From Clostridiales bacterium (GTDB lineage Bacteria > Bacillota > Clostridia > Christensenellales > Aristaeellaceae), in the NCBI GenBank assembly GCA_015056325.1, contig SVGL01000007.1, positions 1-64,000 of the forward strand: DNA of 64,000 nt, written 5' to 3'. The first letter of the stretch is position 1, and each line of letters opens with the position of its first letter. Position numbers and translations under genes: made by a program. The notes under the pieces were generated by a model. The model did not search any database and was not told the origin of the DNA. It saw nothing but the letters and a program-made list of their open reading frames with translations. Shown here piece after piece: positions 31,821 to 61,576 of this stretch.

Positions 31821-31939
31821 ATTGTTACTCCTTTGATTCACTGTAGATGTGTTCTTCACGTATTTAGGATACCATATAAAGATAAAGAAAGGAAGCGCTA
31901 CTTTTAGTTTATGGGCATAAATTGTGTTCGTCTACAATA

Positions 31940-39327: not shown

Positions 39328-39359
39328 CTTACGCCCCCAACAATAGAAAGGAAATCAAG

Positions 39360-42300: not shown

Positions 42301-45300
42301 TGCTGCAGAACAGCGATTTCATTCATGAAACCTCCGGCAGTACCGTTCCTACGGGCTGGGCGATTGGCGATGGTGACAGCAGCTATATCTCCATCCAGGA
42401 TCTGTCCGTTGCAGATGATATTGACGGCAAAATGGCACCTGAGTTCCTGCGCACCTCCAAGGCTGCGCGTGTCGAAGGCCGCTACAACCGTAACATCACC
42501 CTGAATCAGGATTTCCGCTGTTACGGCAATGCTGGTGACCGTTTCACCGCTGGTGGCTGGTGCAAGTCTTTTGCTAAAAAGATGGATGAGGCTGGCGTTG
42601 TATACTGTTCTCTGTCAGTCTACTTTACCGCTAATACGACCAACTGGTATTTGGGTGGTCGCGTCAACTTCAATTACGGCGAGGATGGCTGGCAGTTCGC
42701 AAGCGGCAGTATCGTTGCTCCCTACAACTACACCAAGGTTCGCTTCTCCCTGTACATGAACCGCCAGATGAACCATGCTGACTTCACTGGCCTGTACCTG
42801 TATCCTGAAGCCTTCGGCACGGACTATGTGTACGACGCCAAGGGCAACCGCAAGAAGGCTATCCAGCTGTACGGCGGCGTGAAGAAGACGGAGTATGACG
42901 ACCATGACAACATGATCCAGTACACCGCACCTGGCCACACCAAGAGCAGCACCTTCTCCTATGGTGATACCGAGGAAGCTCAGAAGCAGCATCTGCTGCT
43001 GGAGTCTCACTCTCCGCTGGGTACGGACGGCTACTTTACCTACGATGCCTGCGGCAACGCCACTCGTTCGGACACCTCCGGCGCAGTCGGCAATGTGACC
43101 GCCATCACTCGCAGCACCACTGAGTTCCAGCACGATGGCAACTATATTCACAAGCAGACGGACGCACGCGGCAAGACGGTGACTACCGAGGTCGATGCCG
43201 ACAAGGGCATCACTACTCGCGTCAGCGATCCCAAGGGGCAGGCCGTCGACTACGAGCATGACGCTCTCCGTCGCATTGTGAAGGTCAAGACGACGGATGG
43301 TACCCGCGAGTTCCGCAATGAGTATACCTACGACCAGACTCGTGGCCTACTGACTGGCGTGAAGCACAATACCGATGCAGCCACTGGCAATGATGTCTCC
43401 TATACCTTCGAGTATGATGCTCTGGGGCGCAAGACGAAAGTTAAGCTTGGCGGTACTACACTGTCTACCAATGTGTATCAGAACGATACAGAGCAAGAGC
43501 ACTACGGCACGCTGTCTGAAATGCAGTTTGGCAACGGCACAGTGGTCAAGAACGAGTACGATGACTTCAACCGTGTCATCGGCGTGAAGTGTGATACCGA
43601 AGAAGATCCACGCTATGAATACGCCTACAACGCCAACGGTCAGGTTGCACATGTCCGCAACAATATGATCAGTCAGATCGCCGAAAGCGCGTATGACCGT
43701 TCCAATCGTCCTTATCGCATCAAGACCCACAAGTTCACTGAGGACAACGCTGGTAACGTGACCAACCAGGAGCATGTCTACACTGGCGAGGCCGCCTATG
43801 ACGATGTCTTTGGTCGCCTATCTAAATTGACCGAGCTGGTTGGCAATGATCACGAAGAATTTGTGACCGAGTTCGGTTACGACGATGAGAACCGTCCTAC
43901 CTCCCTGAGCTACGGCGATAATGGCGAAAGCACTCTGGAGTACGATGGCCTTGGTCGTGTAGCAAAGGCGACGGTCAAGGCTGGCAGCGGTACTGTCAAC
44001 GAAACCACCTACACTTATGTGGATGGTGTTCAACTGGATGATGCGACTGACAAGACCAGCACCACTGGCCTTGTGCAGAAGATCGCTCAGACAGGTGGCA
44101 CCTTCGAGTACGAGTACGATGACAATGGCAACATTATCAGCGTGAAGCAGGATAACGTGGAAACCACCTATGCCTATGACGCGTTGGGTCAGCTGACTCG
44201 TGTGGTGGATGGTCATGAAGGCGCTACCTGGGAGTATGAGTATGACCAAGGTGGTAATATCCTGAGCAAGAAGAAGTTCGTGAACGGCGTTGAAACTGAG
44301 AGCATGGCCTTTGAGTATACCAATGCGAATTGGCGTGATCAGCTCACCAAGGCGAACAGCACAACCATCACCTATGATCAGATTGGCAACCCGCTGAATG
44401 ATGGCACTTGGCAGCACGAATGGGTCAATGGCCGGCAATTGGCTCGCATTTATAGTGTTGACACCGATGCCAGCTTTGTGTATAATGAAAATGGACTACG
44501 GGTTCAGAAAACCGTCAATGGTGTGGTGACCAAATACACTTTGCATGGCAAAAACATTGTGCACATGAGCCTAGGCATCAACGAACTGCACTTCTTCTAT
44601 GATGCACAGAACAAGCCTGCTGTGGTAGTGCTTAATGGCACGCCCTACAGTTATGTTAAGAACCTTCAGGGTGATATTGTTGCCCTGCTTGACGGCAACA
44701 AGAACGTTGTGGTACGCTATGTGTATGATGCGTGGGGCAGGCCCATTAAGAAGGAGGGCAGTTTGGCAGCCACGCTTGGCACCGTGCAGCCTTTCCGCTA
44801 TCGTGGATACGTCTTTGACGAAGAGACGGGGCTGTATTATCTTCGGAAACGATACTATTCGCCAACCCGTTCTAGGTTCATTAATGAAGATGAATATAGC
44901 TCTACTGCTCAAGGTATGTTTTCAAGCAATATGTATGCATATTGCGAGAATAAGCCTATTAGCAGGGTCGATGGTGATGGCAAGTTTTTCTTCACTGTAC
45001 TTGGCGCAGCAATTGGAGCGGTTACAGGAGCTGTTGATGCTTGGCTAACAGGCGGGGACATTGCAGAAGGTGCGATCGCCGGTGCAGTATCTGGTGCCAT
45101 ATCCGGTGCCGGCGTGGATATTGGCGTTGCGATGATTGCTGCGAGCGGTGGTACAGCTACGGGTGCTGCCTTTGCTGTTGCTGCTGGAGCAGGTGCACTT
45201 GGCAATGTAGCAGCAACGGCTATTACTGCTGATGAAAACACAGACGCCATGGACTATGTGGCGTCCGGATTAGTTGGCGGTCTCTGTAACATGGTTTCCT

Positions 45301-45497
45301 TCGGTTTGGCTCCAATAAATGGCGAACTGGTTAAAGTGGGTACTTGGGGCCGCTACTTGCTCGACTCGTTCAAGGTTAACATTGAAGGATGGGTCGAGAA
45401 CGTAGGATATGGTTTTTTGGTGTCCGTTGGGAACACATTGTGGACTAAAACAGTTCTACAGGAACCCGAAGGAGAAACAGAAGAGGTAGCTAACTAA
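39360..45497 (+). CDS. RHS-repeat polymorphic toxin (WapA-like)
   Basis: 2045 residues. There is no signal peptide. Residues about 290-450 form a DNRLRE-type domain (VDTYVKEGSSTLYNTADQVW). Then come long YD/RHS repeats (YDALGRKTKVKLGG, YEYDDNGNIISVKQDN). The hyperconserved RHS core ends near residue 1840 with YRYRGYVFDEETGLYYLRKR and YYSPTRSRFINEDEY. The last 200 residues, after the core, are the variable toxin module. They are Gly/Ala-rich and hydrophobic (AAIGAVTGAVDAW, GAISGAGVDIGVAM), so a membrane-active toxin is possible. The next gene is a likely immunity protein. Codon use changes toward AT near the C-terminus, as expected for swapped tips. Confidence 0.9.
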   Translation: MSKKHNRFRSNMSREQFDQLQGTEIKSKRTRFGKVFALGANRFQAVTYTDPVHRFNEKTREWDEMDNRFSATPRMKAAKAAWQQGIMPAVARGDVLLECKTGSMDVACAMSGEVPFINLTDAEGRHLAWGIKDALSILPEADDINDTPVQNVRGMREKVLDHLHGEVTYNGIFAGVDLRCKLDRGFKDELVFAEKERVRPITFLLESEGRQMELNEQNMLIVKDEQGEVVFRLQAPFMLDADEQRGEVAVQLETYEGGIYAMTYIPDATFIESAAFPVVLDPAIESVRGETGIVDTYVKEGSSTLYNTADQVWICNNSTYGKRYGYMRVADLPKIEANHFITGAFLNLKNYSAPTAETPLMCSEVLGDWDAATLTFATQPEVNPLYQDYCKFPKSKYTWQQLDVTTLARKWYLGDNKGVILTPRSDSPNTVRIQSSDGSAKPYFTVNYASLAGLESYLTYDSQSAGLAGFGSVSLVNGNLIFAHGDTAMDGNRMPVSITHYYNSCNSDADEFGLGYGWRTSVHQTLHKEYINEEVVYVYTDGDGTEHWFEVDEDDSTQYVDMSGLNLTLTVGDDDKITITSKGDGRMVFPAITDTPTADAPATDKVLIETIHDAINSKIVVTARTDNKLFVDSVMDGAERTTTFVYTTQTDGSLKCTAIKTPWQTDTACTRFTYTDGCLTTITHEDNRISTYHYTTRNGYELLDQAQGADGLAVRYEYSNTGATYGLPHCITYAEAGETAILSSDADVKNAALYAAKVTYSYGNHLTLVTDNISGKTLRYHFNDNGNQISIDDGLGYAVYTEYDQSDDNANTPINHATTRSRMQRAVKNMLLDHMMDANSSVWEKSSTGTFTRDQANTQWGPVSYKILVPTGSEAYIRQAATLIPGKPYTLSGYMRSGAPKAFVRVAYTINGATKYFNSDVVPVSENASDAPFQRVSVSFTLPEAASENVYCEAIGMTSYGYFWIDCMQLEEGLTCNHFNMLQNSDFIHETSGSTVPTGWAIGDGDSSYISIQDLSVADDIDGKMAPEFLRTSKAARVEGRYNRNITLNQDFRCYGNAGDRFTAGGWCKSFAKKMDEAGVVYCSLSVYFTANTTNWYLGGRVNFNYGEDGWQFASGSIVAPYNYTKVRFSLYMNRQMNHADFTGLYLYPEAFGTDYVYDAKGNRKKAIQLYGGVKKTEYDDHDNMIQYTAPGHTKSSTFSYGDTEEAQKQHLLLESHSPLGTDGYFTYDACGNATRSDTSGAVGNVTAITRSTTEFQHDGNYIHKQTDARGKTVTTEVDADKGITTRVSDPKGQAVDYEHDALRRIVKVKTTDGTREFRNEYTYDQTRGLLTGVKHNTDAATGNDVSYTFEYDALGRKTKVKLGGTTLSTNVYQNDTEQEHYGTLSEMQFGNGTVVKNEYDDFNRVIGVKCDTEEDPRYEYAYNANGQVAHVRNNMISQIAESAYDRSNRPYRIKTHKFTEDNAGNVTNQEHVYTGEAAYDDVFGRLSKLTELVGNDHEEFVTEFGYDDENRPTSLSYGDNGESTLEYDGLGRVAKATVKAGSGTVNETTYTYVDGVQLDDATDKTSTTGLVQKIAQTGGTFEYEYDDNGNIISVKQDNVETTYAYDALGQLTRVVDGHEGATWEYEYDQGGNILSKKKFVNGVETESMAFEYTNANWRDQLTKANSTTITYDQIGNPLNDGTWQHEWVNGRQLARIYSVDTDASFVYNENGLRVQKTVNGVVTKYTLHGKNIVHMSLGINELHFFYDAQNKPAVVVLNGTPYSYVKNLQGDIVALLDGNKNVVVRYVYDAWGRPIKKEGSLAATLGTVQPFRYRGYVFDEETGLYYLRKRYYSPTRSRFINEDEYSSTAQGMFSSNMYAYCENKPISRVDGDGKFFFTVLGAAIGAVTGAVDAWLTGGDIAEGAIAGAVSGAISGAGVDIGVAMIAASGGTATGAAFAVAAGAGALGNVAATAITADENTDAMDYVASGLVGGLCNMVSFGLAPINGELVKVGTWGRYLLDSFKVNIEGWVENVGYGFLVSVGNTLWTKTVLQEPEGETEEVAN

Positions 45498-47040: not shown

Positions 47041-48954
47041 ATGAATTACAAATTCGGACTTTTTCGCATTCTTCGCAACATACGTCCATATCTTCTACTC
47101 ACCATCCTACTTGCTTGCTCATTCTTTGTCGGTTTCTGTGGCTTTTTTTCACATTACATCACAACTGAACAGGTTGAGGCCATAGAATCATGCTATTCCG
47201 TCTTGGCTTCACCGAATCAAGAATATCACCTTTCCCATAGACAATATGATGATTCATGGGTTCTTTCCTATGTACATAATGGTACAACGCAACGTCACGT
47301 TATTGATTACTCGGCATATAGTCAACTTGGTCAAAACTCCATCATTGTCCAAAGCAAAAATGAAGGTCGTGCAATGGGAGCGATTACCGATAGTATCATT
47401 CTCCCCAGTAAATACGATCGTTATGGAAATGTGACTCATGCGTCTACAGTGCAAGAATCATATTGTGTATTACTGGTCACATGTACGAACTCCCCACAGC
47501 TGATTGCAGGCTGCAATTTGTCTTTCACTGCTTCTGTCGATGATATTCTTTCATTGCACCCCGATTATCCAGCGCCCAAAGAAGTTAATGTTGTTCTCTG
47601 TAACACAGGGTTGGATCAGACAGGACTTCCATTAGTTGCTCAAGGTGAACAGTACGTTGTATGGGGAACCTATGGTTCCGAAGTACACCAATATGGAGCC
47701 GGAAATAAACTATTATACGACGAAAGCACTAGCTATCATACTTTGTATAGCCGCACACTCAGGCCCTACCCACTCATAACTGCGCCAACCTATAAGAATG
47801 GGGCCCATAGTTGGCAGTTGCTTGACGAAGAATTCCCGGAATTGCTGTCACCAGAGAGTCCTTCAATTGATACTGTTGTACACACAGTCACACAACTACG
47901 CGCAGCAGTTCCACTATATGGGGTGGGTGTGAACGGCATTAATGGACTTTTACCATTTCACTCTGGGTTGTACTACCTAACAGAAGGACGTGACTTTTCA
48001 ACTTTCGAAACTCAGCAAGGTAAGCAAGTATGTATTATTAGCGAGCAGATTGCTGAACGTAATGCACTAGAAATTGGTGACCATATCTCTCTTTCGCTTG
48101 TCTATAACGACACAATGTATTCGACAAATGCAACAACCGGCGGCGTCTCGTTTTCCATGAGCATCGCCCCAGATACTTGTACAATCGCTGAAGTTGAATG
48201 TGAAATAGTTGGTATATATAGTGGCCCAGTTGATGATGGTACCAGCCCATTATTCTTTCCTGCATTTACCATGTTCATTCCAGAAACAGCTATGCCCGTT
48301 GGGACAACACCCAAAACAACAATAGCATTAGCGAATAACCAAACACTTACTGTTGGCGGTGAATCATATGGAAAAGCGCTTTCCGTATTACAGACATATA
48401 CTCTTTACAAAGGCCAAGAGAGCGCCTTTATGGAACACCTCAATAATCTTGGGATAGCAACTTTGTTCACTGTAAGTGATAATGGGTATAGCCTCATCAG
48501 TCCAGTCTTGATAGAAATGACCAGTGATGGCAAGCAACTCCGAAATATGTGCTTAGTAGTAGAATTGGTGTTACTAGTATGTGTTTCACTTATGTATGCA
48601 TTTCAGTGTCGAATTGAGCAACGACAATTACTGCTGCTTGGTTCCACTCGTCGTTGGGTGCATGAATATCATATTACAGGAATCCTTTTTACTGGTCTCT
48701 TTGCATGTATTATTGCACTGCTTCTTTCCTTCGCATGCTGTGACGAGTTGCGTAGTATATTAAGCAGATTTAGTGTTCTTTCGCTAAGCACGTTGAATTC
48801 ATCAGCAAGTCGTGCTACAGCTTTAGTTGATTGTCCCATCACAGAATTCATTAGTGCATTTTGTTTCCATTTCATTACTCTCTCGATAATCTCCAACGCG
48901 TCAATGCTGCTTTGTTTAGCTTTTGTTAATAGTAAGGTAAATAGAGGAGGGTGA
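47041..48954 (+). CDS. FtsX-like ABC permease, large
   Basis: 637 residues. One N-terminal membrane helix (YLLLTILLACSFFVGFCGFF) is followed by a large extracytoplasmic region. Three membrane helices near the end (LVVELVLLVCVSLMYAF, GILFTGLFACIIALLLSFAC and the last 20 residues) complete the FtsX/MacB-type plan of one plus three helices. Such permeases work with an ATPase to move peptides or lipoproteins or to resist antimicrobial peptides. It starts a three-gene operon with spacings of 4 and 2 bp. Confidence 0.8.
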   Translation: MNYKFGLFRILRNIRPYLLLTILLACSFFVGFCGFFSHYITTEQVEAIESCYSVLASPNQEYHLSHRQYDDSWVLSYVHNGTTQRHVIDYSAYSQLGQNSIIVQSKNEGRAMGAITDSIILPSKYDRYGNVTHASTVQESYCVLLVTCTNSPQLIAGCNLSFTASVDDILSLHPDYPAPKEVNVVLCNTGLDQTGLPLVAQGEQYVVWGTYGSEVHQYGAGNKLLYDESTSYHTLYSRTLRPYPLITAPTYKNGAHSWQLLDEEFPELLSPESPSIDTVVHTVTQLRAAVPLYGVGVNGINGLLPFHSGLYYLTEGRDFSTFETQQGKQVCIISEQIAERNALEIGDHISLSLVYNDTMYSTNATTGGVSFSMSIAPDTCTIAEVECEIVGIYSGPVDDGTSPLFFPAFTMFIPETAMPVGTTPKTTIALANNQTLTVGGESYGKALSVLQTYTLYKGQESAFMEHLNNLGIATLFTVSDNGYSLISPVLIEMTSDGKQLRNMCLVVELVLLVCVSLMYAFQCRIEQRQLLLLGSTRRWVHEYHITGILFTGLFACIIALLLSFACCDELRSILSRFSVLSLSTLNSSASRATALVDCPITEFISAFCFHFITLSIISNASMLLCLAFVNSKVNRGG

Positions 48955-48958
48955 AAAT

Positions 48959-50077
48959 ATGCCTGAGTATCTCAAACGAATATTGCGCAAGCCATTTGCT
49001 ACGCTTATAGTCATCGTTGTCTTTAGTGCTCTTGCCGTATTGATGAACCACCTACAAAGCTCTTTACAGTCACGTCAGGAAAGCCTACTGCGTTTATCTG
49101 AAGAAACCGAAATATGGTGTGTTCTTGCTAATCGCATAACAGGACAGACAAATCATCTTAATGCAAGCTACCAATATGCGCAGGGTTCCTACTACGATCA
49201 AGCAAACGGAATGAGCACATATATGTCAGAAGTGCGCATTGTAACTCAAATGGATGGTGTGCATCTATCCGACAATGGGAATTCCGTTGTCTTTGCCGCA
49301 GTAAACAGTATGGATGCATGGCTACCGCTCCGTGATGCCAGTGTTAGCATTGTCAATGGGAGGGACGTTTCCTTTCTTAATGAATCAACTACGGCTTGTC
49401 TCATTAGTGAGGATTTACTCGGGGTTGTCAGTAATGACCATTTGTCAGTGCTGATGCCGAGTGGGGCGACTCTTCTCATTGAAGTAGCTGGTACCATTGC
49501 TGGACTTGAGCATACAATAGTTGTTCCATGGCAAGCATATAGGGACGTATATGCTTACTACGGTTTTCACGGGCAATCTTTAGACGAGTTTTCATTCTTA
49601 CTGGCTGATAACTCTCAATTAACAGCAATGCAAGAGGCCTTTCATGAAATGTTTGCAATTGGCAGCGCCTCCTCCGCAAATTCTTCAGAAATCTTACTTA
49701 TCAATGATTTTCAGTATCAAAAATGCATGCTGCACTCTAAGCGCAACCTGTTTCTACTCGAACTCCTCCGACCTGTATTAGTAGGATCTATCATAATAGT
49801 AGGTGCGGCTACAACATCATTATTGTTACGCACAAGACAGTGGGAACACGCACTCATGATTAGTCTAGGGCGTAGCATCATTTCCATCATGCTGCAAACC
49901 TTATTGGAAATTACTACAGGATGCTGCATTGGAGTCGCAATGATTCTCACTCTCAGCAGCACTTCGGTGGCTTCTCTTACTCTGTTACTTCTTGCATTTC
50001 TATTTGGCGCATTGATATCTCTACTACTAGACTTAACCAAGCCAGTATTAAGACACATCAGCCACAGGGAGGTGTGA
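48959..50077 (+). CDS. FtsX-like ABC permease, small
   Basis: 372 residues with the same plan: an N-terminal helix (PFATLIVIVVFSALAVLM), an outer domain, and three helices at the end (PVLVGSIIIVGAATTSLLLR, LEITTGCCIGVAMILTL, LLLAFLFGALISLLLDL). It probably forms the heterodimeric channel with the large permease. The start follows GGAGGGTGAAAAT, 4 bp after the previous gene. Confidence 0.8.
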   Translation: MPEYLKRILRKPFATLIVIVVFSALAVLMNHLQSSLQSRQESLLRLSEETEIWCVLANRITGQTNHLNASYQYAQGSYYDQANGMSTYMSEVRIVTQMDGVHLSDNGNSVVFAAVNSMDAWLPLRDASVSIVNGRDVSFLNESTTACLISEDLLGVVSNDHLSVLMPSGATLLIEVAGTIAGLEHTIVVPWQAYRDVYAYYGFHGQSLDEFSFLLADNSQLTAMQEAFHEMFAIGSASSANSSEILLINDFQYQKCMLHSKRNLFLLELLRPVLVGSIIIVGAATTSLLLRTRQWEHALMISLGRSIISIMLQTLLEITTGCCIGVAMILTLSSTSVASLTLLLLAFLFGALISLLLDLTKPVLRHISHREV

Positions 50078-50079
50078 AA

Positions 50080-50766
50080 ATGATACGATTGAAGAATGTC
50101 TCCTATGCATACACTAATAAGAAAGAGCGAGTTGAAGCACTTAAAGATATTAGCTACATATTTGAGTCCGGCAAGCTATATTCAATAATGGGACCAAGTG
50201 GAAGTGGAAAAAGTACATTACTTTCCTTGATCATGGGTTTTGATAAGCCCACAACAGGTGAAATTTTCCTGGACAAGAAGAACATAGTAGATTACTCTGC
50301 TCAAGAATACAGAGCAACGCAAGTTGCAATGATATTTCAACAATACAATCTGTTACCATATCTTACAGTTCAGGAGAATGCCGCATATCCTCTTCTTCTA
50401 CAACACATCCCAATGAAACAAGCCTACCAGAGCGCTAGTCTGCATCTCAAAACGCTTGGCTTAGAAGAAAAATTGTTCAAACGTTTACCTTCAATGCTCT
50501 CTGGCGGGGAGCAACAACGAGTGGCAATTGCCCGCGCTGTTTGCTCTGGCGTAAAGGTCTTGCTCGCTGATGAACCTACTGGTAATCTTGATTACACGAA
50601 CGCGCAAAATATCGCCAGAATATTTCTGAAACTCGCACACGAACAGCAATGCACAGTCATTATGGCTACACATGATTCAGAAATAGCATGTATCGCCGAT
50701 GTTCAACTGCGAATCAGAGATGGTATTCTGTCCGACATAACCCAATCAAGTAACCCTGCCATTTAA
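50080..50766 (+). CDS. ABC transporter ATPase, MacB/LolD-type
   Basis: 228 residues. Walker A is [14 protein letters not shown], the Q-loop is [13 protein letters not shown], the signature is [14 protein letters not shown] and Walker B is [12 protein letters not shown]. It energises the two FtsX-like permeases upstream. The ATG at 50080 follows AGGGAGGTGTGAAA. The substrate is unknown; the cassette type is linked to peptide efflux, bacteriocin immunity or envelope work. Confidence 0.93.
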
Positions 50767-50912: not shown

Positions 50913-51093
50913 ACGCGTTCCCCAGCCCTGAATGAGAATTAGAGATAGCATCAATACAGCAGCGGATAGTAACGGAGACTCTCTGCGTAGTCGCAGCGAG
51001 TCTCCTTCACTGTACTGAGAGTCTCAGCGTGATCAATCAGCAGCAGATGCTTAAAGAGTAGGCGATACGTAAGTGTCAAAAAAACCACGAATA

Positions 51094-51133
51094 AACACGG
51101 CCAACAAGGCGAGATTACCCTGCTGGCCGTGTT
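51094..51133. terminator. Terminator-like hairpin between convergent units
   Basis: AACACGGCC(A) pairs with (T)GGCCGTGTT around a 20-nt loop. It lies between the rightward ABC operon and the leftward caspase operon. Confidence 0.6.
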
Positions 51134-51283: not shown

Positions 51284-53116
51284 TTATCCCAATGCATAAG
51301 CATGTTTCAGGCTTGCATATTCATCCGGCGTAAAGCTATCCCACCATTGCTGCGTCGCATGTTGGAATACACTTAAAGGAAGTGCTAAGAACAAATCCAT
51401 AATCCCGGGGTAAAAATTATCGAAATCATCATTTTGAACGAGCGGCTCCAGTTTTTTAGGGCTCATTCGCAGACTATGTAACTTCACTGCCTCTCGTCTC
51501 ACCCATAGATTCGGATCATTAAGAGCCCATTGCAAATGGAATACATACTTTTTATTCTTCGAATATGTGTCCGTGAAGTAAGTTAGTAGTCCCATTTTGC
51601 TTTCACAACAAGGTATCTTACTTGCATCCTCCAACTGCGATTCGATAGTCCTGTTTTTTGCGTTCTCTAAAAATGGTGACAAGTCTATGTGCTTTTGATC
51701 ACGCCATGACCCATAAAGCAATGACAAAATGAATTTATGCTTAGCCTTTTCGGGTAGTCGTCCTCGAGATCTTGCGTTAACAAGCTCCTTTCTTAGACCT
51801 TTTTGATCGCTTTGAGTATATGAAATATACCCTTGCACATGTGCCAATTGCTTGTCATCCAATAATGAGAAAAATTGATCGAGATTTACTATTCTATCGT
51901 CCTTATCGGAGTATTTGCTTTTGGTATAAGCCTTAAGCAATTCACACAGTCCCCATTGGGTTTTTGACAGGTTGGTTATCAGATAGATCTTTACATCATA
52001 GTCCGGATTTTCACATGAATACAGATTGGCCAGCCATACAGCGTCAATGCGATTGATTAACCCTTTCTTGACTTTTTCTTGGACTGTCAAAAACAATTCT
52101 TGCTCATTTGCCAGCAAATATCTAGCACCAATAAGTCCTACGCACTGGTCTTGCCAGTATGGAGAAGAAAGTAGCGCTAATAGCAATGCTTTTTTTCTCC
52201 TTGAGTCGGACAAACATGAAACTAAGCTACCAGCAGCTCGTCTTACAAGCCAACTCGCCTCTGAAATCTCCCGGTGGTTCGTCTGCTCGAGGCCAAAGAC
52301 TTTCTCACATATTGTTAGTGCAGTTCCCTCTGGCACATCTTGTAGGGAGTACCACATTGCCTCTCGAACCCTTGCATTAGATACCCTTAGTTGTGTAATA
52401 AACCGCTCCGGAAAGTCTGAATAGAAGGAAAGACTCTTTTGATTAGATGCAAGCATGAACGCTGTATCGCCTACTTCAGCACTGCCTAAATGGACACAGG
52501 CATCTCTATAACCAAGTTCAAAAATTAATTTGGCAATCGAACTAACAGAGAGTTCAGCATTCTCGCTTTGTATTTCTTGAATTGCTGCACATAAAACCTT
52601 TGTGAAGACGCTTCCTTCTTCCGCATTGAAGACAGCTCTATCGTAGCATCCACAAGACGCCAGTATTGCTGCTCTAAGCCCATTGATATCTGTTTCCACA
52701 CTCTTTAGAGCCATACCAGCATAACAACAGTCTAGAATAAGTAGGAGTTTAGTATTTCTCCTAAAGATCTGCACGATCTCACGGATACTAAGCGATCCAG
52801 TCAATGAAGAATCGCATTGTGTAAAACACAAAGAAATTTCGTCTTTGTCCAGCGCAGCATGCCCACTAAAATATATCACCAGCACATCATCATAATTGTG
52901 TTCATCTTGACGCGATTGGCTCATCTGTTCCAGTAGCGTTCTCGCTGTTTGACTCGTGATATTCTCCAAACATATACTTGAATGATATTGAAAGCTTCTA
53001 CCCAATGCTGCACGAAAGGCATCATATACCCTTTGGGCATCCTGCTTTGCGCACGGAATATCAGAATAAGTATCGTGGACATAGTGGGAAATACCGATCG
53101 ACACGATTGATAACAA
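51284..53116 (-). CDS. Caspase-like peptidase with C-terminal helical repeats
   Basis: 610 residues. The first 230 form a caspase (peptidase C14) domain. The catalytic His86 lies in DVLVIYFSGHAALDKDE and the Cys131 in LLLILDCCYAG, each after a hydrophobic strand as required. The remaining 380 residues are helical, with HEAT-like units (TQLRVSNARVREAMWYSLQD, WALNDPNLWVRREAVKLHSL) that probably sense or bind a partner. Bacterial caspases of this design act in anti-phage systems, cleaving proteins on activation and killing the cell. It is the last gene of a five-gene operon. The start is TTG, set by AGAGGTGATAGC. Confidence 0.88.
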   Translation of the reverse strand: MLSIVSIGISHYVHDTYSDIPCAKQDAQRVYDAFRAALGRSFQYHSSICLENITSQTARTLLEQMSQSRQDEHNYDDVLVIYFSGHAALDKDEISLCFTQCDSSLTGSLSIREIVQIFRRNTKLLLILDCCYAGMALKSVETDINGLRAAILASCGCYDRAVFNAEEGSVFTKVLCAAIQEIQSENAELSVSSIAKLIFELGYRDACVHLGSAEVGDTAFMLASNQKSLSFYSDFPERFITQLRVSNARVREAMWYSLQDVPEGTALTICEKVFGLEQTNHREISEASWLVRRAAGSLVSCLSDSRRKKALLLALLSSPYWQDQCVGLIGARYLLANEQELFLTVQEKVKKGLINRIDAVWLANLYSCENPDYDVKIYLITNLSKTQWGLCELLKAYTKSKYSDKDDRIVNLDQFFSLLDDKQLAHVQGYISYTQSDQKGLRKELVNARSRGRLPEKAKHKFILSLLYGSWRDQKHIDLSPFLENAKNRTIESQLEDASKIPCCESKMGLLTYFTDTYSKNKKYVFHLQWALNDPNLWVRREAVKLHSLRMSPKKLEPLVQNDDFDNFYPGIMDLFLALPLSVFQHATQQWWDSFTPDEYASLKHAYALG

Positions 53117-53170
53117 GCTATCACCTCTATCTTCTGTTATTCCCTTCTTAACTTATTCTTCCAGAGAATA

Positions 53171-53530
53171 TCACTTGATATCCTCAATCTGAATTTCTAT
53201 ATCTCCCTTGTGGTTACTAGCAACTGTTACACGTTCTATATTCTCCGCAACGATCTCAATCGTCCACGTCTGATGTCGCTTATCCGGATGCCTTGCTAAT
53301 AGAATTTTCATATAATCGTATATCGCGTTGGCAATAAGGCCAGTAGAAATCCCAGTAACCAACGATATTACGACGGAGAGCTCGCATTTGGCAGTTTCAT
53401 CATTGACATGCTCGACACATATTTCAGCATCTGTTAATCTAAAACGATTGCGAATACATGAAGCAAGTTCGTTTAGCAAAATGCTATTGTAAGAATCCGG
53501 AGAAAAATTCTTAACTGCAATATTATTCAT
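53171..53530 (-). CDS. Small protein, EACC1-like
   Basis: 119 residues. A beta/alpha start is followed by a hydrophobic helix (SVVISLVTGISTGLIANAIY) and then beta strands TWTIEIVAENIERVTV and DIEIQIEDI. This order resembles the effector-associated component EACC1, found beside caspase and trypsin effectors in conflict systems. The similarity is in pattern only and is uncertain. The gene overlaps the radical SAM gene by 8 bp and precedes the caspase gene by 54 bp. Confidence 0.5.
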   Translation of the reverse strand: MNNIAVKNFSPDSYNSILLNELASCIRNRFRLTDAEICVEHVNDETAKCELSVVISLVTGISTGLIANAIYDYMKILLARHPDKRHQTWTIEIVAENIERVTVASNHKGDIEIQIEDIK

Positions 53531-54425
53531 GATTTATCCTCCTCTTAATCTTTATACAGTGTTGTGGATACGATTTCGCATAGTTGCGAAGTCTCTCAAT
53601 GTTTGCTGGTGTGAACTCCATGCGAATTAAACTATCCTCAGTATCTGAAAGATGACAAATGTGTTGGTCAGGATATAGTGCCCAATAAGAAGAATAGTCA
53701 GAATTTGTTCTTGTCAACAGCAATGTCTGGCTCGAGTCCACAATCTTGGTTATTGTATTAACACTGTCGCAGTACTCACTATGAGATACTTTTACCAAGT
53801 CAAACGTAGACAACTTGTTTGCGGGATGAGGTTCAATTACGCACCATTCTTTAGGATTGAGTAATGAAATAAAATTTGCAAACTCAAGCCAATGCGGCAA
53901 CATATTCTTGGTAACAACTGTGTTGATCCGCACTCGATCACAACCAGCAGCTAACATGGACTGTAAAAATGCAGTAGTCTTCCCAAAAGCATTCTGATCG
54001 CCACACACTTCGTTGTGAACATCTTCAATGCCATGCAGAGAAACAATAACTCTTGAGAAACATTGCCAGTTATTCATAACCCACTTGGTATTGTTTATAG
54101 AACCTATTCCACTAGTTGTTATTGTAACTGCTACCCCTCCTGAAATACAGGCCTCGACGAGGTAAGGCAAGTTCGCTAGTAGCAAGGGTTCTCCTCCCGA
54201 TATATCAACTTTCTGAACACCAAGACTCTTAAATAGCTGTACAGTTGAGTCGATCAATGCACCATCATAAACCACATGATTTGTTCGCTGAACAGGTTTT
54301 GAAAAACAGAATTTACAGTTTAGCTGGCAGTCATGTGTAGTATGCCACATTATTTGTGCAATATCAGGTGAATACTGTGAATCGCCTAAAAAAGTGTTTC
54401 TAACTCCGTCATATTGGAAACTCAT
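53523..54425 (-). CDS. Radical SAM protein, viperin-like
   Basis: 300 residues. The 4Fe-4S cluster site is Cys33-Cys37-Cys40 in WHTTHDCQLNCKFCFSK, and the SAM-binding GGEP is in VQKVDISGGEPLLLANL. Further features recall viperins: HxTxxCxxxCxFCF, RINTVVTKN, LLNPKEWCVIEPHP (compare the LNPxxW of viperins) and NSDYSSYWAL. Viperins make chain-terminating ddh-nucleotides. A nucleotide kinase-like gene lies just upstream, as in known viperin loci. Other radical SAM enzymes cannot be excluded without a profile search. The start follows GAGAGGAGTACAG. Confidence 0.78.
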   Translation of the reverse strand: MSFQYDGVRNTFLGDSQYSPDIAQIMWHTTHDCQLNCKFCFSKPVQRTNHVVYDGALIDSTVQLFKSLGVQKVDISGGEPLLLANLPYLVEACISGGVAVTITTSGIGSINNTKWVMNNWQCFSRVIVSLHGIEDVHNEVCGDQNAFGKTTAFLQSMLAAGCDRVRINTVVTKNMLPHWLEFANFISLLNPKEWCVIEPHPANKLSTFDLVKVSHSEYCDSVNTITKIVDSSQTLLLTRTNSDYSSYWALYPDQHICHLSDTEDSLIRMEFTPANIERLRNYAKSYPQHCIKIKRRINHE

Positions 54426-54473
54426 CTGTACTCCTCTCCATACACGTGCTATTGTGCCTATTGAGGTATCTCT

Positions 54474-55049
54474 CTACCATGCATCGATTTCTGTTAGCAT
54501 TCTTTGCAAAAAGGTAATACAAGCATCTGGGAGTTCTTGCAAACTGCAGTTGTTTTCAAAGCAAAAGTCATATACATATTCCTCTGCATTGTCATCTGCT
54601 ACGTTTCCGTAAACATGATCTGCAAGCCCCTCTCTTGATGATCGAATAAGAAGTGTGACGCATTGAATTCTCACAGATGACATGTAATCAACAAAACCTG
54701 CTATTTGATCAGCCTCTCGGATATGAACGAATAGTATGTCTACATTTTCCTTAATGAAGCTATTCACTTCTTGTATGAGATACCTATTTGGTAAGTCATT
54801 ATACCAAACCAGAAGTTGCTTTAGGTCTGCAAGAAACTTCCTCGATTTGTTATCCTTTTCCCCCTTCCATCCGCACATAGAAGCCAATTGCTTAATCGGT
54901 GTAATTGCGGAAATTGATTTGCAACGAAATACCCTCCCCGCACAAGAGCAGAAAGTATCTTTGCCAACACCACCTTTTCCGTTGATTACACAGACCACCT
55001 TCTTCTGCAAGCGTAAGCATGCAGGGGAAGCCTTCATGCTCGCGTTCAT
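54474..55049 (-). CDS. P-loop nucleotide kinase-like protein
   Basis: 191 residues. The P-loop is INGKGGVGKDTF at residues 22-33, of the type seen in phage deoxynucleotide monophosphate kinases. Later blocks are KSRKFLADLKQLLVWYNDLP, ILFVHIREADQI and the end YGNVADDNAEEYVYDFCFEN. It would phosphorylate a nucleotide and so might feed the viperin-like enzyme. The ATG at 55049 is spaced 8 nt from GGAGG; a GTG three codons upstream overlaps the ribosome site. Confidence 0.75.
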   Translation of the reverse strand: MNASMKASPACLRLQKKVVCVINGKGGVGKDTFCSCAGRVFRCKSISAITPIKQLASMCGWKGEKDNKSRKFLADLKQLLVWYNDLPNRYLIQEVNSFIKENVDILFVHIREADQIAGFVDYMSSVRIQCVTLLIRSSREGLADHVYGNVADDNAEEYVYDFCFENNCSLQELPDACITFLQRMLTEIDAW

Positions 55050-55070
55050 TCTAGCCACCTCCTCCGCACA

Positions 55071-55301
55071 TTAGTACAACTTGATGCCATACTCTTTCTG
55101 AATATGATGGATGGCTTGAATGTATTTACAATTACCAGTATAGCGCACACTACAATATTCAGGTTCGCATTCCTCCAAGTATCCTTTAGCGCATAAGTTT
55201 GTAAACAGCAACAGCCTGAGTTCATCAATCAATTGTTTCCTGCTATCAGCTTTTATTTCTTGGATAAGGGTCATCACTGTAGCGCTAGTCAAAATATTCA
55301 T
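55071..55301 (-). CDS. Small Cys-containing protein, first gene of caspase operon
   Basis: 76 residues: helical start MNILTSATVMTLIQEIKADS, then ELRLLLFTNLCAKGYLEECE and CSVRYTGNCKYIQAIHHIQK. Four Cys may bind metal. No family is recognised. It is 21 bp upstream of the kinase gene. The ATG at 55301 follows AGAGAGGTGTATT. Being first in the operon, it may be a regulator or antitoxin-like partner; that is inference. Confidence 0.6.
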   Translation of the reverse strand: MNILTSATVMTLIQEIKADSRKQLIDELRLLLFTNLCAKGYLEECEPEYCSVRYTGNCKYIQAIHHIQKEYGIKLY

Positions 55302-55391
55302 AATACACCTCTCTATCCTTTCACTCATACTTGTCCTATGCCTTAATATCTAACAAAAGATTCAGTATGGATTGAGATAAGATCCCATTCG

Positions 55392-55420
55392 ATTATATCA
55401 CATGATTGTAGAAATGTCAC
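55392..55420 (-). promoter_or_regulatory. Promoter of the caspase/radical SAM operon
   Basis: Minus-strand GTGACA (55415-55420), 17-nt spacer, TATAAT (55392-55397). Confidence 0.75.
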
Positions 55421-55766
55421 GTTTTTCACATGTGAATATAGTGAATAATTTCGCAAATAAACCAAATAAACAAAACGCACACGCAACTCAGACATTGAAT
55501 TGTTCAAGAATTCGCATTTTGAAATGTGTTAGCACTTTGCTAGTGCATCACCTCCGCTTCAAGATTTCCCCCCGATATCATGTATGTTCGGCAAGTGGTG
55601 CATGTGAGCGCTCATAGCACTTTTCATGCAAAACTTGTTGGGAAGCATCCCAAACCCTTTGGACATTTCCGTTGGAAATGGCTGTGCCGCTGGGCGGCGA
55701 TTCGTAACTGAACCATGTGCGTTACCTCTGTATCTCAGAAGAGTCTGATAGAAACCGATTGTGAAC

Positions 55767-55795
55767 TTTACTTTCGTGCTAATTCTGCATATAAT
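55767..55795 (+). promoter_or_regulatory. abiEi promoter
   Basis: TTTACT (55767-55772), 17-nt spacer, TATAAT (55790-55795), about 25 bp ahead of the start. Confidence 0.7.
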
Positions 55796-55819
55796 GTTAG
55801 CATGGAAAGAGGTGAGCCG

Positions 55820-56413
55820 ATGGAAGATCGTTTGTTGGCAATCGCTGCATCACAAGGTGGTGTTATCAGGACAGCAGACGCAGTATCCGCTGGGATTACC
55901 AAGTTTAGATTTGCAGCGTTCCTTCAGAAACATGGATATGTTAGGGTATCCCACGGTATTTACCTATCTCCAGCTGCATGGCCGGATGAGATGTTCCTGT
56001 TGCAGCTCCGCTGTCCCAGTATTGTGTTTTCCCATGATACTGCTTTGTATCTACTTGATTTGAGCGATCAGGAGCCTATGCAGCTGACCGTAACTGCCAA
56101 GACAGGATATAATCCATCCCATTTGTCTGATGAAGGAGTCAGAACCTTTACGATCAAAAAAGAGCTGTTTCACATTGGCGTAACAAAATGCACGACTCCA
56201 TTTGGACATGAGGTTAAAGCCTACAATGCTGAGCGGACGATCTGTGATCTTGTGCGGAGCAGAAGCAACCTTGACCCTCGTTTTCTGCAAGAGGCATTAA
56301 AGCGCTATATGTCGCGCAGCACCCGGAATGTGCCGCTCCTCTTGGATTATGCAAGTGCTTTTCATTGCAAAAAATACCTGAAACCATATCTGGAAGTTTT
56401 GTTCTCCTTGTGA
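55820..56413 (+). CDS. AbiEi-type antitoxin/regulator
   Basis: 197 residues. The N-terminal winged helix (AIAASQGGVIRTADAVSAGI) and RVSHGIYLSPAAWPDEMFLL match the AbiEi family, as do FSHDTALYLLDLSD, FHIGVTKCTTPFGHEVKAYN and AERTICDLVRSRSN. AbiEi is normally the antitoxin and repressor of the nucleotidyltransferase toxin AbiEii. No AbiEii gene follows; the next gene is the convergent relaxase. It may act as a stand-alone regulator. The start at 55820 follows AGAGGTGAGCCG. Confidence 0.88.
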   Translation: MEDRLLAIAASQGGVIRTADAVSAGITKFRFAAFLQKHGYVRVSHGIYLSPAAWPDEMFLLQLRCPSIVFSHDTALYLLDLSDQEPMQLTVTAKTGYNPSHLSDEGVRTFTIKKELFHIGVTKCTTPFGHEVKAYNAERTICDLVRSRSNLDPRFLQEALKRYMSRSTRNVPLLLDYASAFHCKKYLKPYLEVLFSL

Positions 56414-56439: not shown

Positions 56440-57861
56440 TTATAGGTTCTTTGCATTTCGGTTATTAGAAACAGTTTGCTCCTGCGGGGTAATCATCATC
56501 TGATGATTGAGGATGCGTTCCACATTAACCTGAGCCTCCTGCAGCTGCTTGCACTCCACTTTTGCTCGGCGATATGCTGCATAGCGTTTCTGCTTTTCAA
56601 CGATCAGTTGGTGTTCCCGCTCCTGCAACTCTGAAATCTTCGGAAGCTGGTTCTGTCCAAGACGGTCAAATGCCTTTTTCGCTTCCCGATAGCAACGTAG
56701 TTCTTCTTTGTGTTCTGCGGCAAATTGTTTGGAGTACCCTGAAACACGATAGGCTTCTGCCACCCTTCGGGTGCGACTATAATCAAAGATGTGTTGGCGG
56801 AGCACACGTAGCTGCTGAATCTGTTCATCAATTTCATGGCAATGTTCAAGTGACATGGACTCATTCTGCTGAGCGCTGGAGATTACGGTAGCTATGTCTA
56901 TGCTATTCAGTGCCCCCCTTGCTTCCAGCATCCGAACCGACTTAGCCGCTCTTTTAAGATTCTCCTTTTTCGCCCAGTATGCAAAACCAGGCCCCTTCCC
57001 CGAATCCATTGCAGCCCTGATGTCTATCAGAAGACCGATTCGCTTGTCTCTGATGACACAGGGCTTGCTTTTTGATTTGGGCGGTTTTCTCTTACCGTCA
57101 ATGATCGCCCGTAGGCTGTTTTCGTCATACCCATCTCCCAGCGTATCCAGACGAGCAAAGCGAGTGAACCCCTCTCGGTGCAGACTGATTCGCTTTCCGC
57201 GCTTCACTTCCCAGCCATCCTGTTCAAGGATAGTCAACAGATCATCAAGGCTCTGAGGCTTCTCCTGCAAAGCTGATTCTATCGCTTCCCGCAGCTGTTC
57301 CTTCTGTGACTTCGGCTTCAGGATACCAAGCCATGAGCCATAGTTCAATCCACGGTGCTTCGGGTTCGTTATTACGGATAGTTGGTGTTCAAGACAAATC
57401 TGGTTACTGAGCCGTCCGACTGCCTGCCCTGACAGGTAGAAATCTCTGAATTTACGGTCGCCATCCAGGGATACAGCATTCCAGAGAATATGATTATGGA
57501 TGTGATCGCAGTCAACATGGGTGGCGACAATGAAGGAATACTTGTCCTTCAGGAAGCGGTGTGCGAACTCTACTCCTATTTGGTTCGCCTCCTCCGGCGT
57601 CACCTCACCGGGCGCAAATGATTGACGGACCTGATAGGCAATCACACCCTGATCAGAGTTTCGATGCGTTCGATCTCTGTACTGCCGATGCGACAGAGCC
57701 CACTCTGCATCAGCAGTTTCAGAAGCACATCGATAAGTAGTTACAAGAGATCCGCCATTGGTCTTGGTTGGATTGATTATGTAGCTGATCCTTGCGTTTA
57801 GACTATGGGGTAGACTTTTCCCCATGCTCAGGTGCATGGGGATGATTCGTGTCGCTGCGAT
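56440..57861 (-). CDS. MobA/VirD2-type relaxase
   Basis: About 473 residues. The relaxase metal site is HVDCDHIHNHI, preceded by FAHRFLKDKYSFIVAT. The N-terminus (AATRIIPMHLSMGKSLPHSL) and ISYIINPTKTNGGSLVTTY are typical of MOBP relaxases of Clostridia elements. The C-terminal half is a charged coiled coil. It nicks oriT and leads the strand into a recipient, using a conjugation system supplied by another element. The codon where the family starts with ATG reads ATC here (57859-57861), spaced 7 nt from GGAGGG. A TTG at 57876 or the ATG at about 57825 are other options. Confidence 0.88.
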   Translation of the reverse strand: MAATRIIPMHLSMGKSLPHSLNARISYIINPTKTNGGSLVTTYRCASETADAEWALSHRQYRDRTHRNSDQGVIAYQVRQSFAPGEVTPEEANQIGVEFAHRFLKDKYSFIVATHVDCDHIHNHILWNAVSLDGDRKFRDFYLSGQAVGRLSNQICLEHQLSVITNPKHRGLNYGSWLGILKPKSQKEQLREAIESALQEKPQSLDDLLTILEQDGWEVKRGKRISLHREGFTRFARLDTLGDGYDENSLRAIIDGKRKPPKSKSKPCVIRDKRIGLLIDIRAAMDSGKGPGFAYWAKKENLKRAAKSVRMLEARGALNSIDIATVISSAQQNESMSLEHCHEIDEQIQQLRVLRQHIFDYSRTRRVAEAYRVSGYSKQFAAEHKEELRCYREAKKAFDRLGQNQLPKISELQEREHQLIVEKQKRYAAYRRAKVECKQLQEAQVNVERILNHQMMITPQEQTVSNNRNAKNL

Positions 57862-58049
57862 GATACATCCCTCCAATGAAAACTATGAATTGAACCACTG
57901 CCGCGCCGGTGTAATGAGGAAGCTCTGTTTTCAGCGAGCTTACTGTTGTTCTTATTATAATATGTTTATTCTAGTGGTAAGTCTTAACTATGTACTATAC
58001 TGTTCATTCGCGCATGAAGGGCATCCGGACTTCTCTTAACAAAGCTGCT

Positions 58050-60014
58050 CTATTCCAGACTAGTGAGCCTCAGCTTCTCGCACCCGGCTTCCACAAGGAA
58101 TCGCTGTACATCCTCTACGGTGTCCATGAACATGCAGTCCAGCACCAGTTGATAAGCCTGGTGCTGTTTTATTGGCCGAAGCAGGTAACCGGCCTTGGCG
58201 ATCATCTCTCTTGACAGCCAGGGCGGCAGCTGGAGTGCAATGCAGATAGCAATCACCTGATCCAAAGAATAGTCCCGCCGCTCTTGAGTGCGCATACGCG
58301 ATATCGTGCGGGCGGAGATTCCCGCCCTTTCCTCCATACCCTCAATAGTCAGATGTGCCCGCTTCATCAGATAGCTCAGTGCGTCTGGAAAGGATAGCGG
58401 CAGCTCTGAGATCAGCTTTGTCATTGCTGTCAGCTTCTCTTTGTTGCTCAGCAATCCTTTCTCCTGCGCGAAGGCCATGTAATGCTGGTTGTAAGCCTCA
58501 TCGCTGTTCATCGCGCCGAAGCAATAATCCGCCACGCCGCAAGGCTCGTAGACGCTGCTGAACCGTAGGCAGCACTGATCCACATGAGCATTCGCCCATG
58601 CAGTCAGACGCAGCCCCTTCTCGGTGTGTCGGACAAATCTGCTGTCATTGATACAGATGTGTCCGTCCACATAGATATACTGCCCGCTTTGAATCTGCTG
58701 CCGGAAGCCCTCATTCTCCCGATAGATGGCGAGCATATCCTTCCTGGCGATTACAAAGGTGTTATTCCCTTCACCATTGCCTGTAGAAAAGGCGAATGGC
58801 TCAATGTAGCGGCCTTCCACATAATTCAGCGCACCCTTGGCAGCGATGTGCCCCATCTGCAGCAACCTTGCCCTGACACGAAACTTGGGCAGGTCGTATT
58901 CCGCTGCAATCGTTCGGGCAACACCATCAAATTTCTGCCCTGCATGATGATTATTTTGTGCCCTGCGCGCCCACTCTCTGGCTACCAGCGGCTCCATCAT
59001 TCTCAGCGGCATCATCAGGCCGAAGCTGCCGCGTCGCGCCTGCCACTCCATCCATTTCAGCGGGTTCGCGGGAACCCGATCATTTTGCACCACAATGCGT
59101 TTGGTTTTCAGCAGATTGACGTCGCTGTTGTGCATGTCCTGCAACCGAAAGAACATATAGTGCCAGTCATAATGAATGCACTCATGATAGATCTCCAGCT
59201 GGCAGCAGTCCTTATGCACTGCATCGGTGTTGATCACGATGGTGCCAGCCGGAATGCTGACTGAACAAGGTATGTCCAGTCCACACCCTTCCTCATCCTG
59301 CTTTTCTGCCATTATCTCACCGTCGCAGAAAAAGAGCATACTGAGCGTACCCTTCTTCTTGTACAACGGATACCGTGCGACCTGCAAGCCCATGCGAGCA
59401 GCCAGCAGGTAGGCATCATGCTCCTTCATATCCTCCAGGGCCTTGGGGCAATGGCGCAACAGCAGTTCCTCTGCACCCTGCTCCACTTCATCCTTGCGGA
59501 GGATTGGTACAAGGTAGCTGCTCAGCATCCACATATCCCGTTCGGGTTTGTCCTGCAGGTATCCGCATTCTCCGCAGGTGAAGCCCATGCCCGTGTGCAT
59601 ATCCACCCACAGTTCGCAGTACAGATCGTATACTTGCACAACGTTGTTTACTGATACATATGCGCTGATAACCACATCCACCAGCAGTGTGTGGGTATCA
59701 CGCCGCCAGAAGCTCATTTCTCCGAAATGGCAGTCTCCGGCACGAAGTGTTACTGTGCCTCCACATTTCTCTGCGATTTCTTTGAGTGTTCCACCTGCGA
59801 TCTGCCGGTTGATTTCACCCAGGATCAAGCGTTTGTGGTGCTTGAGAATATATTCCTGCATTGATTGTACCCGTGGAACGGTCACCGTTTTGGTTCTCCG
59901 AGGGGGCGATATGACATCACATTCGTCCATAGTATCTACATGCTGCGTGTCCATCTCCTTGCTATTCATATTGTCGTCTGAGATCAGCATAAGGCGCTGC
60001 ATATTGTCCAGCAT
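58050..60014 (-). CDS. ImmA/IrrE-type metallopeptidase fused to a helix-turn-helix
   Basis: 654 residues, much longer than ordinary ImmA (about 130-270). The peptidase motif HExxH is in QLEIYHECIHYDWHYMF. Earlier there is a possible zinc pair in GFTCGECGYLQ. The last 110 residues carry an XRE-like helix-turn-helix (LTIEGMEERAGISARTISRM). ImmA peptidases cut repressors of mobile elements when DNA damage or a signal arrives. The fusion suggests a single-protein sensor and regulator. The start follows GGAGGGTACAAGCA. Confidence 0.82.
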   Translation of the reverse strand: MLDNMQRLMLISDDNMNSKEMDTQHVDTMDECDVISPPRRTKTVTVPRVQSMQEYILKHHKRLILGEINRQIAGGTLKEIAEKCGGTVTLRAGDCHFGEMSFWRRDTHTLLVDVVISAYVSVNNVVQVYDLYCELWVDMHTGMGFTCGECGYLQDKPERDMWMLSSYLVPILRKDEVEQGAEELLLRHCPKALEDMKEHDAYLLAARMGLQVARYPLYKKKGTLSMLFFCDGEIMAEKQDEEGCGLDIPCSVSIPAGTIVINTDAVHKDCCQLEIYHECIHYDWHYMFFRLQDMHNSDVNLLKTKRIVVQNDRVPANPLKWMEWQARRGSFGLMMPLRMMEPLVAREWARRAQNNHHAGQKFDGVARTIAAEYDLPKFRVRARLLQMGHIAAKGALNYVEGRYIEPFAFSTGNGEGNNTFVIARKDMLAIYRENEGFRQQIQSGQYIYVDGHICINDSRFVRHTEKGLRLTAWANAHVDQCCLRFSSVYEPCGVADYCFGAMNSDEAYNQHYMAFAQEKGLLSNKEKLTAMTKLISELPLSFPDALSYLMKRAHLTIEGMEERAGISARTISRMRTQERRDYSLDQVIAICIALQLPPWLSREMIAKAGYLLRPIKQHQAYQLVLDCMFMDTVEDVQRFLVEAGCEKLRLTSLE

Positions 60015-61554: not shown

Positions 61555-61576
61555 AGTGCGGGAAACAGGACTTGAA
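61555..61576. repeat. attR of the outer element
   Basis: The tRNA 3'-end copy of the 22-bp core; identical to 21437-21458. Confidence 0.93.

Follow-up and report, generated by a model that had tools for sequence, protein, structure and literature searches.

A viperin-like radical SAM enzyme, a small alpha/beta protein and a caspase-HEAT protease form a gene core conserved in two bacterial loci, a putative nucleotide-based conflict cassette

We investigated an operon of five open reading frames (ORFs), all on the minus strand at positions 51284-55328 of a 64,000-nt stretch of contig SVGL01000007.1 from a Clostridiales bacterium (hereafter the window). Three of its genes, encoding a viperin-like radical S-adenosylmethionine (radical SAM) enzyme, a small alpha/beta protein and a caspase-HEAT protease, form a core that is conserved in two loci, the second of which lies on plasmid p1 of Azospirillum argentinense (Pseudomonadota). 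We consider the operon to be a putative conflict cassette, rare, horizontally moving, nucleotide-based and probably anti-phage, in which the caspase would be the effector; judged on sequence comparisons, this reading has a probability of about one half. Both nucleotide chemistry of the viperin type and proteolysis of the caspase type are known from bacterial immunity. We found no description of a viperin or radical SAM protein combined with a caspase in the literature searched, which was accessible in part and lay mostly outside subscription papers.

We identified the second locus by a tblastn search of 72,556 plasmids with the radical SAM protein as query, which returned 12 records. The top match, on p1, covers 94% of the query at 33.7% identity and lies third in a run of five genes on one strand, after those for a 166-aa protein and a 222-aa thymidylate-kinase-family protein and before those for a 99-aa protein and a caspase-HEAT protein; 4-bp overlaps occur at two of the gene junctions. 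The kinase, radical SAM, small-protein and caspase genes keep the order that they have in the window, and likewise share one strand. The radical SAM proteins of the two loci are 34% identical over 288 residues (E 1e-45), and the caspases are 27% identical across a 586-column alignment (about 550 residues, E 2e-35), with the conserved part of the caspase extending through the helical-repeat region. A caspase query against the plasmids matched the p1 record over 91% of its length (E 3e-26), the sole other record being from Hymenobacter (E 7e-6). The 119-aa protein of the window and the 99-aa protein of Azospirillum are likewise homologous (z = 7.0, with 0 of 1000 shuffles reaching the score). 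Similarity was not detectable between the two kinases, for which 89 of 1000 shuffles reach the score and of which the Azospirillum protein matches Thymidylate_kin at E 7e-22; nor is the first gene of the window similar to the 166-aa protein that occupies the same place in Azospirillum (633 of 1000 shuffles).

These shuffle and alignment results indicate that the conserved unit consists of the radical SAM enzyme, the small protein and the caspase, and that the kinase is exchangeable. The filling of the kinase slot by dissimilar families points in turn to a nucleotide-phosphorylation step that is needed. A sequence-only reading made before this analysis had proposed a defence unit that would be undermined if the gene set were never conserved elsewhere, or if the radical SAM protein grouped with housekeeping enzymes and the caspase showed no link to the other genes. 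The core recurs at one further locus, indicating that the gene set is more than chance, and the joint conservation of the caspase with the radical SAM enzyme and the small protein ties it to the rest of the operon, to the extent that two loci allow.

The radical SAM enzyme is encoded by gene 3 (53523-54425, 300 aa), which matches the Radical_SAM family of Pfam (E 5e-11) and the pVip model of PADLOC (E 1.2e-22). It contains the cluster motif CxxxCxxC at residues 33-40 (C33, C37 and C40), EWCVIEPHPANK, and a C-terminal SSYWALYP. Its best NCBIfam match is the viperin model NF038283, at 73.5 bits against a cut-off of 180; four viperins scanned on the same model reach 243-343 bits. The alignment to this model, which has a length of 281, spans positions 3-240 for the window enzyme, 4-255 for the Azospirillum enzyme (91.7 bits) and 8-188 for a true MoaA. 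In a search of the PDB, an unnamed radical SAM protein ranked first (E 9e-11), followed by SkfB and then MoaA. The only cysteines common to the window and Azospirillum enzymes are C33, C37, C40 and C195, indicating that no SPASM or MoaA-type second cluster is conserved, which argues for small-molecule, nucleotide-type chemistry. At the C-terminus, behind the barrel, a shared [ST]-Y-W-x-[LI]-x-P motif (SYWALYP and TYWSIQP) aligns with S-Y-[LV]-x-[IV]-x-P (SYLMIGP-like) in 7/8 viperins, including the tyrosine that we take to be the active-site tyrosine of viperins; the [ST]-Y motif is absent from the three MoaA rows of the same alignment. The Trp of a W-x-[VI] strand is also in register with the viperins, and not with the three MoaA rows.

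We placed both enzymes in a tree built from 27 of 36 rows, cropped around the cluster motif, from which eight loci and L015 were left out; several of its end branches are long and the tree tool warns that placements are unsure. MoaA serves as the outgroup to viperin in the accessible part of PMC10732462. The window and Azospirillum enzymes pair at 100/100 and fall outside a clade of the viperins (n=8) and L013, at 99/96. Forcing them together with the viperins plus L013 costs 2.6 log units and is not rejected (p value of the approximately unbiased test, p-AU, 0.258), so that a sister position to the viperins is allowed, not proved. We regard gene 3 as viperin-like, not as a proven viperin; the viperin likeness proposed earlier stands, and neither the curated score nor the tree makes the protein a viperin.

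Compared with the pVip/SAND proteins (NF038283; PADLOC PDLC02903-02904), gene 3 shares the CxxxCxxC motif, the W-x-[VI] strand and the C-terminal [ST]-Y motif followed by P, and a kinase gene adjoins the enzyme in some viperin loci. It differs from them in the letters DISGGEPL and EWC[VI]I[EQ]PHPANK, which replace those of viperins, in its position far under the curated cut-off and outside the clade of the eight viperins tested, and in being joined to a small protein and a caspase. The lineage marked by EWC[VI]I[EQ]PHPANK may make a nucleotide that is not yet described.

We additionally observed two other radical SAM loci that match the viperin model below its cut-off. On Escherichia coli plasmid NZ_CP027324.1 (L066, 1480-3490), a radical SAM protein scoring 86 bits (cut-off 180) stands in a tight gene run with a deoxynucleoside kinase and a Nudix-type nucleoside triphosphatase, a possible radical-SAM nucleotide unit. 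At L067 (G352:C17, 5311-10443), a protein scoring 166 bits (same cut-off) has U32-peptidase-like, methyltransferase-like and ATP-grasp-like neighbours (labels assigned by eye), a set that looks biosynthetic, not defensive.

The caspase-like peptidase is encoded by gene 5 (51284-53116, 610 aa, with a TTG start). It matches Peptidase_C14 at E 4.7e-12 (46.5 bits against a cut-off of 21.4), and its catalytic motifs are intact, with FSGH at 83-86 supplying His86 and DCCYAG at 129-134 supplying Cys131, bearing out the caspase assignment and the catalytic residues named from sequence alone. The C-terminal helical repeats, also predicted earlier, can be called HEAT-like by a weak match, since HEAT_2 falls below its cut-off of 27.7 bits in both caspases (16.6 bits in the window and 20.9 bits in Azospirillum). 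Directly 5' of the caspase, in the window as in Azospirillum, lies the small gene, here gene 4 (53171-53530, 119 aa), the homologue of the Azospirillum 99-aa protein. An AlphaFold2 (AF2) model from the single sequence gives the 119-aa protein a mixed alpha/beta fold (predicted local distance difference test, pLDDT, 72.8; predicted template modelling score, pTM, 0.70), with a central hydrophobic helix set within it.

A small gene in front of a caspase recalls the EACC1-caspase two-gene systems described by Kaur et al. 2020 (system 4; PMC7159879, partial text). EACC1 is also mentioned in PMC8195603, the accessible text of which contains neither 'viperin' nor 'radical SAM'. For comparison we picked 10 of the 54 plasmid records matched by the peptidase part of the caspase. 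In nine of the ten loci fetched, the gene directly 5' of the caspase is small, and its product passes PF19953 (EACC1) in 9/9; these nine loci are actinobacterial and not independent, as three resemble one another at 95-96% and a fourth at 72%. In the tenth, from Rhizobium, a gene annotated as TIR takes the place of the small gene. The 119- and 99-aa proteins agree with EACC1 proteins in size, position and possession of a hydrophobic helix, and not in sequence. EACC1 proteins carry a single conserved transmembrane helix with small residues; the 119-aa protein has a hydropathy peak of 1.77 at residue 52, compared with peaks of 1.3-2.0 at residues 47-71 in the nine EACC1 proteins, and in its AF2 model the helix belongs to the alpha/beta fold. 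PF19953 has no match to it at E up to 10 (within its own genome), nor by hmmscan at E up to 1; hhalign against the EACC1 profile gives E 0.09, z against each of the nine EACC1 proteins is at most 2.2, and 13 shuffled copies score above the 119-aa protein on the EACC1 profile. Having failed the profile, profile-profile and shuffle tests, an EACC1 identity for this protein was rejected.

The sole NCBIfam match of the window caspase is NF047832, at 69.5 bits against a cut-off of 140. Three control caspases with an EACC1 gene score 207-239 bits on this model, and five without an EACC1-like annotated neighbour score 30-97 bits (neighbours being taken from annotation, not from a PF19953 scan, and consisting upstream of a TIR gene, a large or other caspase gene, or none). 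The window caspase is thus no closer to the EACC1 type than caspases without such a neighbour, and we discarded the NF047832 match as evidence for that type. The likeness of the window pair to EACC1-caspase systems is one of layout: a small gene whose product has a hydrophobic helix immediately precedes the gene of a caspase, the C-terminal part of which is variable. In contrast to those systems, the window pair has no EACC1 profile match, and it shares its operon with a radical SAM enzyme and a kinase. In two plasmid loci (L053 and L071, from Rhizobium binae and Agrobacterium) a TIR-annotated gene lies directly upstream of the caspase, an arrangement that resembles type IV Thoeris.

Gene 2 (54474-55058, or to 55049; 194 or 191 aa) encodes a P-loop nucleotide kinase with the Walker A motif GKGGVGKDT. 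We found no Pfam family above its cut-off, and the query is matched over at least 80% of its length by 30 phage records; in the best 20 of these 30, identity is 29-35% and two are annotated as deoxynucleoside monophosphate (dNMP) kinase. PHROG 139 is matched at E 0.0015 over 48 residues. Gene 2 resembles annotated phage-type dNMP kinases over nearly its whole length and has the Walker A motif, which places it with them, in agreement with its first description as a P-loop kinase-like protein; its structure model is poor (pLDDT 46.6). Similarity to phage dNMP kinases of the phrog_139 type (from Enterocloster, Rhizobium and Tenacibaculum phages) extends over at least 80% of the length, whereas gene 2 belongs to a bacterial operon and its slot in Azospirillum is taken by a thymidylate-kinase-family protein. 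A Ruminococcus albus plasmid protein is 40% identical to gene 2, and the annotation of its 5-kb flanks includes neither a radical SAM nor a caspase gene. Of eight viperin loci fetched, two have a deoxynucleoside kinase annotated as the next upstream gene, indicating that a kinase before the enzyme is a known order, and none has an annotated caspase within flanks of 2.5-4 kb.

Gene 1 (55071-55328) encodes a protein of 76 aa from an ATG at 55301 or of 85 aa from an ATG at 55328, so that the 76-residue frame reported earlier is confirmed, with a longer start available. We identified no match to it in Pfam, PADLOC, NCBIfam or PHROGs, and no homologue.

The cassette is rare. We found no third locus in plasmids, phages, viral contigs, species genomes or sampled taxa, in scans that were not exhaustive. 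Among the 12 plasmid records for the window radical SAM protein, three were covered over >80%, namely Azospirillum and two annotated viperins at 23-24% identity; the Azospirillum radical SAM query returned 131 records, two of them covered over >80% among the best 20 of the 131. The whole caspase returned two plasmid records, and its peptidase part 54 (best 40 of 54 listed). The radical SAM protein had no match in phages. Viral contigs yielded a chance match (L033), two partial caspase matches (L074 and L075), and an IMG/VR contig carrying the operon, which is 100% identical to the window over the compared parts and which we do not count as independent. A set of 84,980 species genomes was scanned twice, with patterns that required particular motifs; the first gave 43 stretches, none of them confirmed, and the PHPANK-motif scan gave eight, of which 0/8 were confirmed by tblastn.

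Profile searches with the radical SAM protein covered overlapping genome samples. In the class, 34/291 genomes match at 1e-12, the next best reaching 74.7 bits against 593 for the own locus; in the phylum, 2/398 match at 1e-18, the second at 68 bits; and in the order, the single match at 1e-16 (1/267) is the own genome. No match was found in Alphaproteobacteria (0/385 at 1e-20) or Pseudomonadota (0/388 at 1e-16), these last two being samples with no positive control inside. A kinase search in the order matched 6/248 genomes, comprising the own genome and five short P-loop matches.

In the proposed cassette, the kinase and the radical SAM enzyme would together make a modified nucleotide. Upon infection, the small protein and/or the HEAT-like repeats would sense this nucleotide, the fact that it is being made, or the condition of the nucleotide pool; the caspase, once unleashed, would cleave cell proteins and so halt the phage through growth arrest or death. 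Direct poisoning of phage polymerases by the nucleotide, as is thought for viperin products, may add to this. A narrower and tentative proposal is that the viperin-class enzyme makes a nucleotide second messenger, which the small protein or the HEAT-like repeats would sense and which would switch on the caspase; the operon would then be a nucleotide-to-caspase death pathway run by radical chemistry, not by TIR or cyclase chemistry, a reading to which we give well under even odds. A precedent is type IV Thoeris, in which, according to the accessible text of PMC12847820, a TIR protein makes N7-cADPR, and this signal turns on a caspase-like protease from the same operon. Both pair a nucleotide-modifying enzyme, presumed in our case, with a caspase-like protease in one operon; they differ in that the nucleotide enzyme of the window would be a radical SAM protein and activation by its product is only presumed here. 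We found no TIR domain among the eight window proteins scanned with Pfam. By keeping a viperin-like enzyme with a caspase in distant hosts, such an operon would open to direct test whether viperin-type products can be immune signals as well as chain terminators.

Several results weigh against the reading of the operon as a nucleotide-based conflict cassette. The true MoaA scores 71.3 bits on NF038283, so that the 73.5 bits of gene 3 is no better and was set aside as proof of a viperin, and PDB chains named viperin-like or viperin rank below SkfB and MoaA, at E 2e-8 and weaker; from this MoaA-level score and the PDB ranking, the chemistry of the enzyme is not fixed by sequence. Forcing the two enzymes with the eight viperins alone is disfavoured (15 log units, p-AU 0.028). 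The motif [KR]-I-N-T-V-V, which gene 3 shares with viperins and which we considered as a viperin mark, occurs also in a MoaA row and is not diagnostic. The model of the 119-aa protein has no PDB match at E 0.001 or better. On p1, the caspase frame is broken near the N-terminus, the domain starting in one frame and continuing in another (about 7183-7400), and the remaining ORF scores 14.9 bits against the Peptidase_C14 cut-off of 21.4; either this copy is possibly decaying or inactive, or there may be an error in the record. Low G+C is also found in the neighbouring ABC transporter (0.42) and AbiEi (0.45) genes, and only two loci are known.

We weighed four other explanations. As in the two-arm proposal of the sequence-only reading, the kinase and radical SAM enzyme could make a ddh-nucleotide-type chain terminator, while the caspase pair, sensing something else, would serve as an independent suicide arm held in reserve. 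Viperin-type enzymes do make ddh-nucleotides with antiviral activity (PMC9642334, in the part available), and each half is known by itself, as kinase-viperin pairs without an annotated caspase and as small gene-caspase pairs without a radical SAM protein in actinobacteria. However, the small protein and caspase are not freely mixed but kept with the enzyme in two distant hosts, and no annotated caspase occurs in the flanks of the eight viperin loci; we judge this explanation unlikely, if a serious one. Since it is the kinase family that changes between distant hosts, and not the company of enzyme, small protein and caspase, we lean slightly towards a nucleotide that acts upstream of the caspase over two independent arms. 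A peptide-modifying unit, in which a maturase-like radical SAM enzyme modifies the 76- or 119-residue protein and the caspase processes or obeys the product, seems to us improbable. In its favour are the overlap of the radical SAM and small genes (8 bp in the window, 4 bp in Azospirillum), the peptide maturase SkfB as second-best PDB match, and the proposal that in FtsH-ternary conflict systems the product of a radical SAM gene modifies a peptide effector (accessible text of PMC7159879). Against it stand the lack of conserved auxiliary-cluster cysteines, the first small protein, which is not conserved, the nucleotide kinase kept in both loci, and an enzyme C-terminus that aligns with viperins.

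It is similarly doubtful that the operon is an EACC1-caspase two-gene system (system 4) with the radical SAM enzyme and kinase as chance, variable neighbours. The similar size and place of the small gene, its hydrophobic peak at residue 52, and NF047832 as the only NCBIfam match of the caspase speak for this possibility, and are outweighed for us by the failure of the 119-aa protein in the EACC1 sequence comparisons and by a caspase score that lies within the 30-97 bits of caspases without an EACC1-like annotated neighbour. Finally, the operon might be a metabolic or regulatory unit on a mobile element with no role in defence, for instance one that salvages nucleotides or that makes a modified-nucleotide natural product and protects its host from it; the 166-bit viperin-model match in an apparent biosynthetic cluster of another genome of the same class speaks for this. 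We doubt this too, given a caspase with an intact catalytic dyad and a conserved repeat region, for which there is no obvious metabolic role, and a mobile and conflict-gene setting.

The ORF coordinates reproduce the five leftward genes and the gaps of 21, 48, -8 and 54 bp noted before. A putative sigma-70 promoter on the minus strand (55392-55420; GTGACA-17-TATAAT, with TG before the -10) matches at 11/12 bases and is the top of 16 sigma-70-like matches between 50000 and 57000. The shuffle mean for this region is 15.6, so that the promoter assigned at this place by the sequence-only reading is plausible as the best regional match, and is not significant. A possible intrinsic terminator follows the operon on the same strand (51083-51102), one of 6 such sites against 5.9 by shuffle.

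The operon genes have a G+C content of 37-42%, compared with 52.6% for the whole window. They are flanked on one side by a MacB-type ABC transporter operon (47041-50766), and on the other by an AbiEi-like gene (55715-56413), a relaxase (56440-57876) and a helix-turn-helix protein (58050-60014); serine recombinases occur at 33624-36808 in the same window. This neighbourhood has the appearance of DNA that is mobile and was acquired. As for the host, an RNase Y gene (758 bits) and the relatives of the kinase in Ruminococcus and in Enterocloster phages suggest Bacillota; a search for a 16S gene in the own genome found none. The AbiEi-type antitoxin-like gene (PADLOC E 6e-63) is divergent from the operon, and no AbiEii match was identified with Pfam or PADLOC among the proteins scanned beside it. 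The relaxase is of the MobA/VirD2 type, suggesting a mobilisable element around the operon, and a tRNA-Leu gene lies at 61556-61640. Elsewhere in the window we identified an OLD-family nuclease-like protein with AAA and TOPRIM domains (29946-31859), a possible further defence gene, and an RHS-repeat protein of 2062 residues with a CBM96 domain (39309-45497).

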